Positions 1 through 6,904 of a DNA stretch of 64,000 nucleotides are shown here, one piece after another. Below the pieces are notes generated by a model. That model saw only the letters and a program-made list of their open reading frames with translations. It searched no databases and was not told the origin of the DNA. Source of the stretch: Pseudohongiella sp. (GTDB lineage Bacteria > Pseudomonadota > Gammaproteobacteria > Pseudomonadales > Pseudohongiellaceae); the NCBI RefSeq assembly GCF_011050365.1, contig NZ_DRFV01000016.1, forward strand, positions 109,549 to 173,548, given 5' to 3'. Each line of letters begins with the position of its first letter. Position 1 is the first letter of the stretch. Position numbers and translations under genes: made by a program.

Positions 1-656
1 TGCATGCGGTGACGCACACGGCGGACGAGATAGAAATTGCCTTGCGCCAGGGCTTGCTGACTTGCCCGCTCGACTCCGAACGGCACTTCGCCGGGCTGTG
101 CTTCGGCATTGGCGAGATATTGCTGCATCGCCGCCCAATACGCTTCCAGATCAAATTCACTTCGCATCAGCGCCCAGTCATCACGTACCTGCCAGTGTGC
201 TGTCGGCCATTGCTCCATGGTCAGTTGTTGCAGATCTGCCAGTGTGTAAACGTCCTGGTCGGCTCGGTCAAACAATGTTATCAGTAAAGTTTCCAGTTCG
301 ATGATATCCAGCATCGCCGGCAGCTGGCCAAATTGTGGGTGTTGGCTGGCGAAGGTATGCAGATCGTCACCCAGCAGGCTCATCGGACCCGGCCGCGGTG
401 GGTGACCTTCCAGGTACTCAAGCCACAGGCGGGTATACACCGCATCGCCCAGAGTGTGGTACAAAATGGGGTAAAGTTCTGCGGAAATATTGATCAGGCG
501 CTGATGATAGGCATTGTTGTATATGCCCAGTGCTTCAACCTGGTTAAGCTCGCGATGGGGTGCGAACATGTGCATGATGTCGTCACGACTGTCACGCAGA
601 TCCTGGGGTTTGGTGATCCAGTTCCAGAACGCTTGTTGTTCGTCTTCCCAGCGCAT
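1..656 (-). CDS. bufC: BufC/HvfC-type peptide-modification chaperone (DUF2063), C-terminus cut by window start
   Basis: The minus strand is open from an ATG at 654-656 to the window edge, about 218 residues with no stop. The product starts MRWEDEQQAFWNWIT and continues with IYNNAYHQRL and LEYLEGHPP, the look of the DUF2063 N-terminal domain. In RiPP systems this family is the partner (HvfC/BufC) that presents the precursor peptide to the DUF692 oxidase. The ATG lies 2 nt beyond the bufB stop, so the two are probably translationally coupled. The family call rests on sequence pattern plus context. The C-terminal half lies outside the window. Confidence 0.85.
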   Translation of the reverse strand, partial: MRWEDEQQAFWNWITKPQDLRDSRDDIMHMFAPHRELNQVEALGIYNNAYHQRLINISAELYPILYHTLGDAVYTRLWLEYLEGHPPRPGPMSLLGDDLHTFASQHPQFGQLPAMLDIIELETLLITLFDRADQDVYTLADLQQLTMEQWPTAHWQVRDDWALMRSEFDLEAYWAAMQQYLANAEAQPGEVPFGVERASQQALAQGNFYLVRRVRHRM

Positions 657-658
657 GC

Positions 659-1510
659 TCATGCCCGCTGCTGCTGAGCAGACTCTGGCTGATGTGTCGG
701 CCGGACCAGAGCCGCTTGCTGGAGGCGGCGGGCCTGATCGAGTTCCTGCATCAGGTCGGTAAAGGCAGGAATGTGGTCATCGCGTTCCAGCAACGTTGCC
801 ACCGCGCCGACATGCTCACAGGCTTGGCTGTAAAGCGTCCAGACCTCGTCGCTGACCGCCTGGTCATGTGTGTCAATAATATGGCTGACATTGTGAGTGT
901 GGCCCGCCAGATGGAACTGTTGCACGCAGTCGGGACGGATTGCCCGGATTTGTGCCAGTGGATCCAGGCCCAGATTGAAACTGCTGACGTAGATGTTATT
1001 CACGTCCAGCAGAATGCGGCAGCCGGTATTCTCCACCAACGCATTGATGAAATCGGCTTCACTCATGTCGGATGACTTGAATTGCAAATATACCGACGGG
1101 TTCTCCAGCACGATGGTTTGCTGCAGCGTGTCCTGAATCTGGCTGACTTTGCTGCTGACCTGCGCCAGCGTCTGTTTGTTGTAAGCAATGGGCAACAGGT
1201 CGTGCGAAGTACGGCCATGCAGCCCGGTCCAGCACAGGTGGTCGGATACCCAGGCGGGCTGGCATTCGTTTATTAGCTGTTTGAGTTGTTGCAGGTAATC
1301 AGCGTCGGGCGCTTCGGCCGATCCTATGTTGAAGGACAGGCCGTGCAGAACAACGGGGTAGTGTTCACGCACCTGGCGCAGGATGGCGCGGGGACGGCCG
1401 CCGGGCGCCAGGTAATTTTCGGTAATCAATTCAAACCAGTCTACTGCCGGCAGGTTGTCCAGTACATAGTCATAGTGGGGGCTGCGCAGTCCGATACCGA
1501 AACCAAGCAT
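659..1510 (-). CDS. bufB: MNIO-family (DUF692) bufferin maturase
   Basis: A 283-residue DUF692 protein, a multinuclear non-heme iron-dependent oxidase of the family that modifies Cys residues in RiPP precursors (MbnB, HvfB, BufB). It is a TIM-barrel-type enzyme with likely metal ligands on successive strands: E31 (ITEN), H56 (LHGLSFN), D90/H91 (SDHL), E136 (LENPS), D169 with N171/N172 (LDVNN), H200/H204 (FHLAGH), D213/H215 and E242 (LERDD). Full length for the family. It sits between the Cys-rich precursor upstream and bufC downstream. By family knowledge the product oxidises precursor cysteines, in known bufferins to thiooxazole-type groups that bind copper. The residue assignments are inferred from motif positions, not from an alignment. 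Confidence 0.9.
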   Translation of the reverse strand: MLGFGIGLRSPHYDYVLDNLPAVDWFELITENYLAPGGRPRAILRQVREHYPVVLHGLSFNIGSAEAPDADYLQQLKQLINECQPAWVSDHLCWTGLHGRTSHDLLPIAYNKQTLAQVSSKVSQIQDTLQQTIVLENPSVYLQFKSSDMSEADFINALVENTGCRILLDVNNIYVSSFNLGLDPLAQIRAIRPDCVQQFHLAGHTHNVSHIIDTHDQAVSDEVWTLYSQACEHVGAVATLLERDDHIPAFTDLMQELDQARRLQQAALVRPTHQPESAQQQRA

Positions 1511-1536: not shown

Positions 1537-2058
1537 TTACAGCGATGACAGTACCGTACCGCCGAGCTTTTCACACAGTGAGTCGGACAACGCCTTGTCA
1601 CCAGTGTAAACGCCGACGAAACCAATGCCGTGACAGGTGTTCTGACCGGCGCAACTGGCGTTGGCGTTGCCTTTACAGGCGCTGAGGCCGGCGCAGGTGA
1701 ACACATCATTACAATAGGCTACGTATACCGCTTCTTCAGCCAGTGCGGTCTCCGGTGTGGCGGTGAGGCTGGCGGCTTCACTGCCTCCCATGACCTGACA
1801 CATGGCAGCGGAAAAATTGGCATTGCCGGTGCTTACCGCGACAAATCCGACGTCGCCTGAGCTATTGGCGCCTGCGCCCGCCTCATTGCCGAGACCTTTG
1901 CAGGCACTCTGGCCGGCAGCATGGACGCTCTGACACAGGCTGATTTTAATCGGCGCATCAGGGTTCTTGCTTTCAACATCGAAGGCCGCCATGCCGGAGC
2001 CGGACATCATCAGGGCTGCGGCAGCAGAGGCCAGCGTAAATCCGTCAGTCTTTTTCAT
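1537..2058 (-). CDS. bufA: Bufferin-type Cys-rich precursor (BufA2-like) with two repeated modules
   Basis: A 173-residue secreted Cys-rich protein. Residues 1-25 are a Lys-Lys start and hydrophobic stretch ending in GMAAF, consistent with a Sec signal peptide. The rest has nine Cys (42, 53, 87, 116, 122, 128, 136, 142, 162). The second module (about 116-168) has the BufA2 pattern CAGLSACKG, then CAGQNTCHG, then GFVGV, ending with C and LGG. The first module (about 42-92) repeats SACKGLG, GFVAVSTG and CQVMGG with fewer Cys. Most BufA2 proteins I know carry one module and are about 100 residues long, so this looks like an internal duplication. It is 26 nt upstream of bufB, with GGGAGA before the ATG. 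Expected role: a periplasmic copper-binding peptide after modification by BufBC. Confidence 0.82.
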   Translation of the reverse strand: MKKTDGFTLASAAAALMMSGSGMAAFDVESKNPDAPIKISLCQSVHAAGQSACKGLGNEAGAGANSSGDVGFVAVSTGNANFSAAMCQVMGGSEAASLTATPETALAEEAVYVAYCNDVFTCAGLSACKGNANASCAGQNTCHGIGFVGVYTGDKALSDSLCEKLGGTVLSSL

Positions 2059-2138: not shown

Positions 2139-2244
2139 TGAACAGTCGTTACGCGGTGCCGCAACAACATCGGTTGCGATGTTATTACGCTGTGCAGACT
2201 TTACCGGATTATCCCACTGTGAGGCGCGAATACAAGCGGATGCG

Positions 2245-2874
2245 TCAATTTGTCACAAGCTGCTGAAGGTGCTGAATACGGGCATTCAGCCGGTCCACAC
2301 GCAGGCGCAAGGCATCCAGTTCATCGGTAAAATGCTGTACCTGTTGCCGGGTGGGGGTCAGCCCTGCTTCTTCCTGCACAAAATCGGTGACATTGCGTTT
2401 CATCGCGCTGGCCGCGTGTAGCGCCGTGTCACGGCTGTGCTGCCAGCCAGTATCCACTGCCCGGGTACCGATATCGCCAAGCAGGGGCCCGAGCAGGTCC
2501 TGCCAGTTAATGTCGAGCTGATTCAGTGCCCGGTGCAGACGCTGGACAAGTTGCACGTCGCCACTCAGTTCGATGTCGGGGTCGTGCAGCGCGGTAGCCT
2601 GATCGTCGCTGAGCAGTACCCCGCTCAGGGCGCGATGGCTGCCGGCCAGGCAGGCATCGGGTGTGTCCTGCTGTGCCGACAGCAACATGACCCGGTCGTT
2701 GTTGATGAGCAGGCTGACCTGCCAGCGTGGCAGGCTGGTGCAGCGTATGGTGATGATTTTGTCAGCGGCGGCGGCACTCAACGCCCGGATGATATGCGGG
2801 TCGCGGGCGATCAACCGGTTGATGGCGAACTCCAGTGGTTGCAGCAGAGCGGTACCGAGCAGAGACAGAGCCAT
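2245..2874 (-). CDS. ubiJ: Ubiquinone biosynthesis accessory factor UbiJ (SCP2-like)
   Basis: A 209-residue protein starting MALSLLGTALLQPLEFAINRL, typical of UbiJ. An N-terminal SCP2-like lipid-binding domain (to about residue 110) is followed by a helical C-terminus with a coiled coil (DELDALRLRVDRLNARIQHL). UbiJ is a non-catalytic member of the soluble Ubi complex that holds the polyprenyl ring intermediates. The frame stays open further upstream, but the ATG at 2874 fits the family N-terminus and sits 14 nt after the ubiE stop. ubiB, the usual third gene of ubiE-ubiJ-ubiB, is not next; the bufferin operon follows instead. Confidence 0.87.
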   Translation of the reverse strand: MALSLLGTALLQPLEFAINRLIARDPHIIRALSAAAADKIITIRCTSLPRWQVSLLINNDRVMLLSAQQDTPDACLAGSHRALSGVLLSDDQATALHDPDIELSGDVQLVQRLHRALNQLDINWQDLLGPLLGDIGTRAVDTGWQHSRDTALHAASAMKRNVTDFVQEEAGLTPTRQQVQHFTDELDALRLRVDRLNARIQHLQQLVTN

Positions 2875-5522: not shown

Positions 5523-6065
5523 TCAATCCAGCTCAAGCTCTTCGATGATGTGCTGATGGTTGGTGTAAACACAAATGTCCGCAGCAATGCCCAGGCTTTT
5601 GCCGACGATATCGCGTGCTTCCATATCAGTGTTGAAATACAGTGCGCGCGCCGCCGACAGAGCAAATGAGCCGCCAGAACCAATAGCCATCAAACTGTCT
5701 TCCGGCTCAATGACGTCACCATTGCCGGTGATGATCAGCGAAGCATCCTTGTCGGCAACAACCAGCAGCGCCTCCAGGCGGCGCAATGAGCGCTCTGTGC
5801 GCCAGAGTTTTGCCAGCTCGACGGCGGAGCGCACCAGCTTGCCGTGGTGTTTGTCGAGCTGCTCTTCAAAGCGCTCGAACAGGGTAAAGGCGTCAGCCGT
5901 GCCACCGGCAAAACCGGCCAGCACCTGATCCTTGTGAAGTCGGCGTACTTTGCGCGCGTTGCCTTTGAGTACGGTATTGCCTTGTGATACCTGGCCGTCG
6001 CCGCCGATCACAACTTTGTTGCCGCGCCGTACTGAAAGTATGGTGGTGCCTCGGAACTGCTCCAA
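5523..6065 (-). CDS. hslV: ATP-dependent protease peptidase subunit HslV
   Basis: A 180-residue threonine protease, the bacterial proteasome-like peptidase of HslUV. The sequence begins [26 protein letters not shown]; the catalytic N-terminal Thr is T7, so the first six residues must be removed, unlike E. coli HslV where only Met is lost. [14 protein letters not shown] and the C-terminal part match the family. First gene of hslV-hslU-DUF971-ubiE-ubiJ. A sigma-32-type promoter lies about 80 nt upstream (6144-6171), matching known heat-shock control of HslVU. Confidence 0.96.
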
Positions 6066-6143
6066 ACCGTTTCTCCTGTGGTCGGTTTCCTATGCCGGCT
6101 GGCAGAGGATCTGATGTCTGTATTTAGAATGTGCTGCTAGCAG

Positions 6144-6171
6144 ATATGGGGGCGGGCCGATTGCTTTCAAG
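6144..6171 (-). promoter_or_regulatory. Sigma-32 (RpoH) heat-shock promoter of hslVU
   Basis: On the minus strand CTTGAAA (6171-6165), a 13-bp spacer and CCCCATAT (6151-6144) match the RpoH consensus CTTGAAA / CCCCATnT exactly in both boxes. The hslV ATG lies about 80 nt downstream. The -35 box overlaps the last codons of the upstream SPOR-domain gene. The match is read directly from the sequence; use by RpoH is inferred from hslVU regulation in relatives. Confidence 0.85.
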
Positions 6172-6904
6172 GCTGGCTGAGGGTGATACGCATGCTTTCG
6201 ATGCTGTTGTTGCGCAGCAGCCGCTCGGCCTGCATCATTTCATCACGGGTGTCATAGGGGCCGGCCTGGACCAGAAACAGGGTTCTTCCCGGCAGAGTCT
6301 CCTGCCGCACGCGGGCGTCCAGCCCCAGCGCAAGCAGACGGTTGGCCTGCGCGTTGGCGGCTGTTTGTTGTCGGAAGGCACCGGCCTGCAACATGAACAT
6401 GGCTGTTGATGCGGGTGTGACTTCCGGCGCCGGGGTTGTTGCTGCCGCTGTTGCCGGCGCCTCATCGGTCCGATCTCCGGCGGACGGTGTTGTTGTCGTT
6501 GGGGTGGCGGCCGTTTGCGCCGGCTGTCGGGGCGCATTCACCGGGGTGGCATCGACCACCACTTCATAATTGGGAAGCTCCTGGTAGAACTCAAGTTGCA
6601 GGCGTGCCGCTTCACGTTCCTGCTCGACGGACAGGTCACTGTCATTGCCCGCACCATCGGTATCAGCACCGGTCTCAGCCTGCGCCGGCGTCACCGGACG
6701 GTCACCATTGTCGGCCAGCGTATTTTCCTGGCCCGGCGCCGGCGGCAGCACACCTGACAGATAGACCAGCAGACCGATAAACAGGCCCACCGCGATGCCG
6801 GTCAACAAGCCGGTCAGCAGAAGCCCCTGACCGGAGGCTGAAGGCTTGGGCTCTGGCTCGGCCAGCGGCGTGCGTTTACGTTGTTTGGCAAAATCCTGAA
6901 CCAT
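6167..6904 (-). CDS. SPOR-domain membrane protein (FtsN-like)
   Basis: A 245-residue bitopic inner-membrane protein: a basic cytoplasmic start (FAKQRKRTPL), one transmembrane segment at about 28-53, a long low-complexity linker rich in Ala, Thr and Pro (about 60-160), and a C-terminal SPOR domain (about 165-242, with FMLQAGAFRQQTAANAQANRL and LFLVQAGPYDTRDE). SPOR domains bind denuded peptidoglycan at the division septum. It lies between priA and hslVU, the place where E. coli and many relatives carry ftsN, so FtsN is the best guess, but the essential FtsN helices were not identified. Confidence 0.8.
   Translation of the reverse strand: MVQDFAKQRKRTPLAEPEPKPSASGQGLLLTGLLTGIAVGLFIGLLVYLSGVLPPAPGQENTLADNGDRPVTPAQAETGADTDGAGNDSDLSVEQEREAARLQLEFYQELPNYEVVVDATPVNAPRQPAQTAATPTTTTPSAGDRTDEAPATAAATTPAPEVTPASTAMFMLQAGAFRQQTAANAQANRLLALGLDARVRQETLPGRTLFLVQAGPYDTRDEMMQAERLLRNNSIESMRITLSQP

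Follow-up and report, generated by a model that had tools for sequence, protein, structure and literature searches.

The reverse-strand gene at positions 1537 to 2058 of the window, by which we mean the whole 64,000-nucleotide stretch of a Pseudohongiella sp. contig (NZ_DRFV01000016.1) analysed here, appears to encode a two-domain bufferin precursor of the BufA2 type, in which the second module would act as the chelator and the first as a scaffold pseudo-module; we give this reading a probability of about 0.6. What is new here is the one-sided asymmetry of a Cys-depleted first module beside a full second one, and no published description of an asymmetric two-module BufA2 was found in the literature searched. 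The features discussed below, in window coordinates, are as follows.

1537 to 2058, reverse strand: bufA2-like precursor gene, 173 amino acids, two modules (open reading frame and NF050166 match)
1984 to 2058, reverse strand: N-terminal hydrophobic, Ala-rich, signal-peptide-like segment, residues 1 to about 25 (sequence and a low-confidence model)
1783 to 1938, reverse strand: first module, residues 41-92, with Cys 42, 53 and 87 (C1, C3 and C6)
1852 to 1932, reverse strand: first-module Cys loop (residues 43-69), which 7 of 28 relatives lack
1783 to 1851, reverse strand: scaffold part of the first module, residues 70-92, comprising a strand, a helix with C6, and GG (pN/pS and models)
1558 to 1716, reverse strand: second module, residues 115-167, with six Cys (116, 122, 128, 136, 142 and 162)
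659 to 1510, reverse strand: bufB, an MNIO (DUF692/PF05114) maturase (NF050167 and PF05114 matches)
1 to 662, reverse strand: bufC-like DUF2063 partner gene, cut by the window edge (PF09836 match)
2208 to 2236, reverse strand: sigma-70-like promoter element CTTGTAT..N..GATAAT (consensus match only)
2241 to 2257, reverse strand: imperfect inverted repeat TGTGACA-N3-TGACGCA, a candidate operator upstream of the operon

The precursor gene has the position, strand and length assigned to it in an earlier sequence-only reading, which had also described it as a tandem two-module protein with three Cys in a depleted first module and six in the second. That description was borne out. Residues 41-92 and 115-167 share 23 identities over 52 aligned columns, with an alignment score of 106, where shuffled sequences averaged 11.9 (z 11.8), and none of 2000 shuffles scored as well. 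The same was true of 2000 shuffles in which Cys and Gly were held fixed (z still 6.7), and a blastp search of one half against the other gave an E value of 3.4e-13, in a tiny search space.

The only NCBIfam family matched by the precursor was BufA2 (NF050166), with an E value of 2.8e-11 and a score of 43.4 bits, which falls under the curated cut-off of 60; there was no Pfam match at E 1. All 24 family members scanned whole match NF050166, the best at 58.4 bits, and none of the 137 genomes of the window's family exceeds the cut-off. Judged by these profile matches, the protein is a divergent BufA2 (Buf2) precursor whose homology is clear and whose status as a curated equivalog is not, and the group stays below the curated BufA2 cut-off throughout the family. 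It shares with Buf2 (NF050166; Buf_6/12Cys) the order of C1 to C6, the gene order bufA-bufB-bufC and the type of maturase, a Cys-Lys-type MNIO with Asp at the FonB-F250 site, and its hydrophobic, Ala-rich N-terminus lies in the same position as in canonical BufA2. It differs in the gap between C5 and C6, which is 12-13 residues in canonical Buf2 and 19 in the window family. The captophorins/oxazolins, in which an MNIO and a DUF2063 partner install 5-thiooxazoles (PMC13097082), carry short Lys-Cys repeats (EGKCG), unlike the two-module layout seen here. A BufA2 match was obtained in 28 of the 137 family genomes, and the buf operon is patchily distributed in this family. The 109 genomes lacking a match, 89 of which were not itemised individually, include every listed member of groups g2 to g4 and, among those listed, one genome of g1 (G033) and one of g6 (G036).

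The sequence-only reading had placed DUF692 and DUF2063 genes next to the precursor, and both assignments held. BufB scores 356.1 bits with NF050167, above the NCBIfam cut-off of 310, and is the sole PF05114 match in this genome, while its neighbour scores 41.2 bits with DUF2063 against a cut-off of 27.2. The complete DUF2063 partner, which runs past the window edge, is 280 amino acids long (5869-6711 of locus L107); its only NCBIfam match is to HvfC, at 19.6 bits against a cut-off of 142 and with no canonical BufC score as a control. The bufferin-type MNIO and DUF2063 partner lie 3' of the precursor gene, and a BufB homologue is present in all 28 family loci. An OsmC-family gene and a CRP gene lie beyond bufC in L107; no DoxX gene was recognised by eye among the L107 open reading frames of at least 110 amino acids.

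Two modules are encoded in all 28 family genomes with a match. One of the 28 counted (L036) lacks the gene start at a contig end. Before counting, we dropped rows for a gene truncated at a contig end (L009), two weak self-genome matches (L019 and L020), a repeat of the window gene (L032) and two second loci of genes already counted (L050 and L051); rows L001-L017, largely contigs of the family search, were used for structure alignments and excluded from the counts. With Cys numbered C1 to C6 as in canonical BufA2, the second module has C1, C2, C3, C5 and C6 in 28/28 genomes and C4 in 25/28, giving a complete set in 25 and three sets without C4. No first module is complete: C1 and C6 are each present in 28/28, C3 in 21/28, C5 in 17/28, C2 in 9/28 and C4 in 0/28. 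First modules have five Cys in nine g6 genomes, four in eight g1 genomes, three in the window and three other g1 genomes, and two in seven genomes (one of g5, four of g6 and two of g1), the last of which lack an entire loop of about 22 residues. Among the 24 members aligned, C42, G78, S83, C87, G91 and G92 are invariant.

The loop-less state requires three changes on a tree of BufB (28 family and 19 outside rows; L063, with 114 aligned residues, was left out), a count that gives the number of changes and not their direction. We read the long first module as ancestral, because the long forms have details in common and match the second module in their entire layout; if the short form were ancestral, one gain and two losses would be needed. 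The loss of C5 seen in the window also occurs in L030 and L031, yet C5 is present in L033, the sister of L031 (100/86), and therefore this loss was no single clean event.

The structural model of the window protein is poor (mean pLDDT 50, pTM 0.53). In it, each module forms strand-loop-strand-helix-strand with the Cys loops at low confidence, and the signal-peptide-like segment is helical at residues 6-18. The model of L016, a relative in which the first loop is gone, is better (mean pLDDT 64.4, pTM 0.63); residues 41-80 of its first module, where pLDDT averages 75-89 per block, are predicted to fold as strand-strand-helix-strand. C1 lies close to where the first strand ends, and the helix contains C6. 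The L016 model supports a scaffold that would stand without its loop. A fold search returned no significant fold match.

Substitution patterns separate the loop from the scaffold. In the four members of the window clade, the first-module scaffold (residues 70-92) has a pN of 0 against a pS of 0.62. The dN/dS of the first loop compared with the second is 0.098 vs 0.011 in the window clade, 0.101 vs 0.008 in the g1 four-Cys clade, 0.065 vs 0.035 in the g6 long forms and, over few columns, 0.314 vs 0.030 in the g6 short forms. The corresponding scaffold values are 0.00/0.01, 0.05/0.09, 0.05/0.10 and 0.14/0.11, all estimated from pairwise counts in which the pairs are non-independent and pS is high. 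Counts of variable columns in the window clade point the same way, with 7/27 in the first loop against 1/27 in the second (Fisher p 0.050) and 0/23 in the first scaffold (Fisher p 0.011). The first loop also exceeds the second in the g1 long forms (15/27 vs 6/27, p 0.024), whereas its difference from the first scaffold (10/23) in these 12 forms is non-significant (p 0.57), and in the g6 long forms there is no difference between the loops (6/27 vs 4/27, Fisher p 0.73). The first-module scaffold is under purifying selection; the loop, by its dN/dS and variable columns, is therefore relaxed in the window's genus and less clearly so elsewhere. The first module had earlier been called partly decayed, which fits its Cys loop and does not fit its scaffold, conserved about as well as that of the second module across the four groups.

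Module homology, the Cys pattern of the 28 genomes, purifying selection, gene order and the repeated change between the long form and the loop-less one come from computation; the chemistry, disulphides, export, copper role and scaffold function we infer as follows. The precursor would be made with a signal peptide and held by the BufB-BufC pair. This pair may convert inner Cys of the second module by oxidation into thiooxazoles that bind copper, after which the product would be exported and would sequester copper in the periplasm. The first module would descend from a full BufA2 module that progressively lost its loop of inner, modifiable Cys (C2-C5). What may have preserved it is the strand-strand-helix-strand scaffold, which a C1-C6 disulphide probably holds together; the module would then be a pseudo-module for stabilisation or docking and not a second copper site. 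Buf1 bufferins (DUF2282, PF10048) have a four-Cys core, unlike the window protein, and a DUF2282 search of this genome found nothing at E 1; the likeness lies in the proposed mechanism, with modification of the central Cys and a disulphide between the outer two (PMC12452194). The pair kept in the first module, C1 and C6, is the counterpart of the outer Cys of Buf1, and those lost are the counterpart of its central, modified Cys. Such an assignment of modified and disulphide Cys is carried over from Buf1 by analogy, the chemistry being that of Buf1 and of EGKCG peptides.

Several observations run against the pseudo-module reading. The SACKG Cys, the only Cys-Lys site of the first module, persists in the window, so that one modified residue is possible there. 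Nine g6 relatives still have five first-module Cys, and in six of six g6 proteins scanned the stretch that scores best as BufA2 lies in the five-Cys first module together with the signal segment and not in the second module. The similar variation of the two loops in the g6 long forms, and of first loop and first scaffold in g1, likewise speaks against it. We would place at somewhat under even odds the broader proposal that a duplicated chelating domain became non-chelating, as a structural cap or an enzyme-docking domain, by repeated excision of its modifiable Cys loop. If true, this would make the first module a 'pseudo-bufferin' domain that kept its outer-Cys scaffold, by a logic comparable to that of a pseudoenzyme subunit. 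The relatives, whose two-domain proteins range over 5, 4, 3 or 2 first-domain Cys, offer a natural experiment on which bufferin parts serve the metal and which serve folding or maturation.

Two modules as such are not new, since 12-Cys forms have been published and are present in our samples, and the earlier statement that BufA2 proteins are known as single modules only has to be given up. Buf2 (Buf_6/12Cys) is reported to have six Cys in 90% of cases, the remainder carrying 12 in duplicated six-Cys domains, and one 12-Cys Buf2 has been modelled as a duplicated domain (PMC12452194). In the order sample, 46 of 293 genomes match BufA2 at E 0.001, six of them from the window's genus, and 12 of the 40 matching genomes outside that genus show two matches in one frame. 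The class sample had a match in 97 of 369 genomes, with one clear two-module case (G555) among the matches listed. Ten two-module loci of other families (L063, L067-L074 and L129), chosen by a pattern demanding six Cys per module, have 6+6 Cys. These 12-Cys Buf2 proteins resemble the window protein in having tandem BufA2 modules after one signal segment, and differ in having six Cys in each, against 2-5 in the first module of the window family; six per module was not found in the window (3+6) or anywhere among the 28 genomes (2-5 plus 5-6).

The first module most likely arose by a separate duplication within this lineage, as judged from a module tree and the C5-C6 gap. The tree, of 82 modules over 53 columns and hence weak, had identical modules entered once and every second of 55 distinct single modules (27) included. 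It places both modules of the window family on one side of a branch from 27 single and 17 double modules (100/98), at the very split for which the program issued a long-branch warning; the family's first modules group together at 89/81 and its second modules at 60/85. Between C5 and C6 lie 19 residues in 28/28 second modules and in 17/17 first modules with C5, as against 12 or 13 in 72/72 canonical modules, under a pattern allowing 9 to 18; a concerted change between modules could mimic this. A possible but doubtful origin, compatible with any of the functional readings, is that the window family belongs to the published 12-Cys Buf2 group and has lost some Cys. A clade that unites the window family with every double module is not rejected (AU p 0.216) and the bufABC gene order is the same in both, which favours that origin; besides the isolating branch and the longer gap, a grouping of the family's first modules with those of the 12-Cys forms is weakly rejected (AU p 0.038). 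Two further kinds of variation were seen among related precursors. In L138 (frame at 1292) and L139 (reverse-strand frame at 738), expanded BufA2-like precursors carry extra Cys-Lys units inside one module, giving many more Cys. A lipobox-like L-x-[GAS]-C motif ends the signal segment, by eye, in L037 (g5), L063, L067, L068, L070, L071, L072 and L074, which suggests membrane anchoring of several two-module precursors.

For the role of the scaffold, the main alternative, which we consider unlikely, is maturase docking: BufB-BufC would grip the first-module scaffold, not the signal peptide alone, and the module would act as a folded leader for the second. The conservation of the scaffold beside an expendable Cys loop fits this, as would a modification that presumably takes place in the cytosol before export; the low, uncontrolled HvfC score of BufC (19.6 bits, cut-off 142) adds a little. 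Preliminary results reported for Buf1, however, make the signal peptide part of the recognition sequence (PMC12452194), and single-module BufA2 proteins need no such domain.

It is decidedly improbable that both modules are modified and bind copper, with the first as a lower-capacity site that possibly shares its one inner Cys with the second. Twelve-Cys Buf2 proteins with six Cys in both modules do exist, and Lys follows C3 in 19 of 21 long first modules. The multi-site product proposed in the sequence-only reading is nevertheless disfavoured, because the Cys lost from the first module are the inner, presumably modifiable ones; all of these are gone in 7/28 genomes, and C4 from every first module. 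The least probable reading, a neutral remnant being lost, would suit the graded Cys loss, the loop-less forms and the faster evolution of the g6 short forms (dN/dS 0.157 for the module and 0.363 for the linker), and is already disfavoured by the unchanged window-clade scaffold, a first-module dN/dS of 0.04-0.16 in four groups and the six invariant residues.

The residues that follow the Cys differ from those of canonical modules. In 72 canonical modules Lys follows C2, C3, C4 and C5 in 65, 52, 49 and 64 cases, whereas in the window family it follows C3 only (27/28 second modules). The residue after C2 in second modules is Ala (15) or Asn (13), and after C4 it is Ala (25/25). His follows C5 in 27/28 by script; the remaining row, L030, was a pattern hit on C4 and reads CHG by eye. 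In 28/28, BufB carries Asp both where the catalytic base is proposed to lie and at the FonB-F250 site, and Asp at the latter has been linked to Lys after Cys (PMC13097082). BufB keeps this Lys-linked Asp yet Lys follows C3 only, and the enzyme therefore presumably accepts Cys without Lys. An MNIO with the Asp proposed to read Lys after Cys may thus accept Cys lacking that Lys.

Upstream of the operon, the promoter element is 29 bases long in all 27 upstream sequences compared (the window and 26 relatives; of the 28, L036, with two upstream bases, was omitted). The repeat, as TGNGACA-N3-TGNCGCA, occurs with no mismatch in 22 of the 27, with one in three and with three in two, the pattern having been drawn from the same related sequences on which it was counted. 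It lies 3-4 or 14 bases before the 29-base CTTGT..ATAAT element, spacings about one helical turn apart. Among 1350 mononucleotide shuffles, four reached one mismatch and none reached zero. A stricter pattern with up to two mismatches was found once in the window against 0.78 expected, and that site is perfect. Across the genome, the repeat with at most one mismatch was matched 36 times, at 30 places of which six were counted on both strands; a reversed control gave 18 matches. A copper regulon marked by this repeat was considered and rejected: no copper gene was recognised by eye at the 12 genomic loci read, and the CTTGT..ATAAT element was absent within 83 bases of the repeat at these loci. 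By eye, one-mismatch copies in the same genome lie near TonB-dependent receptor-like genes (L145 and L166) and near a zinc-type ABC transporter-like gene (L158).
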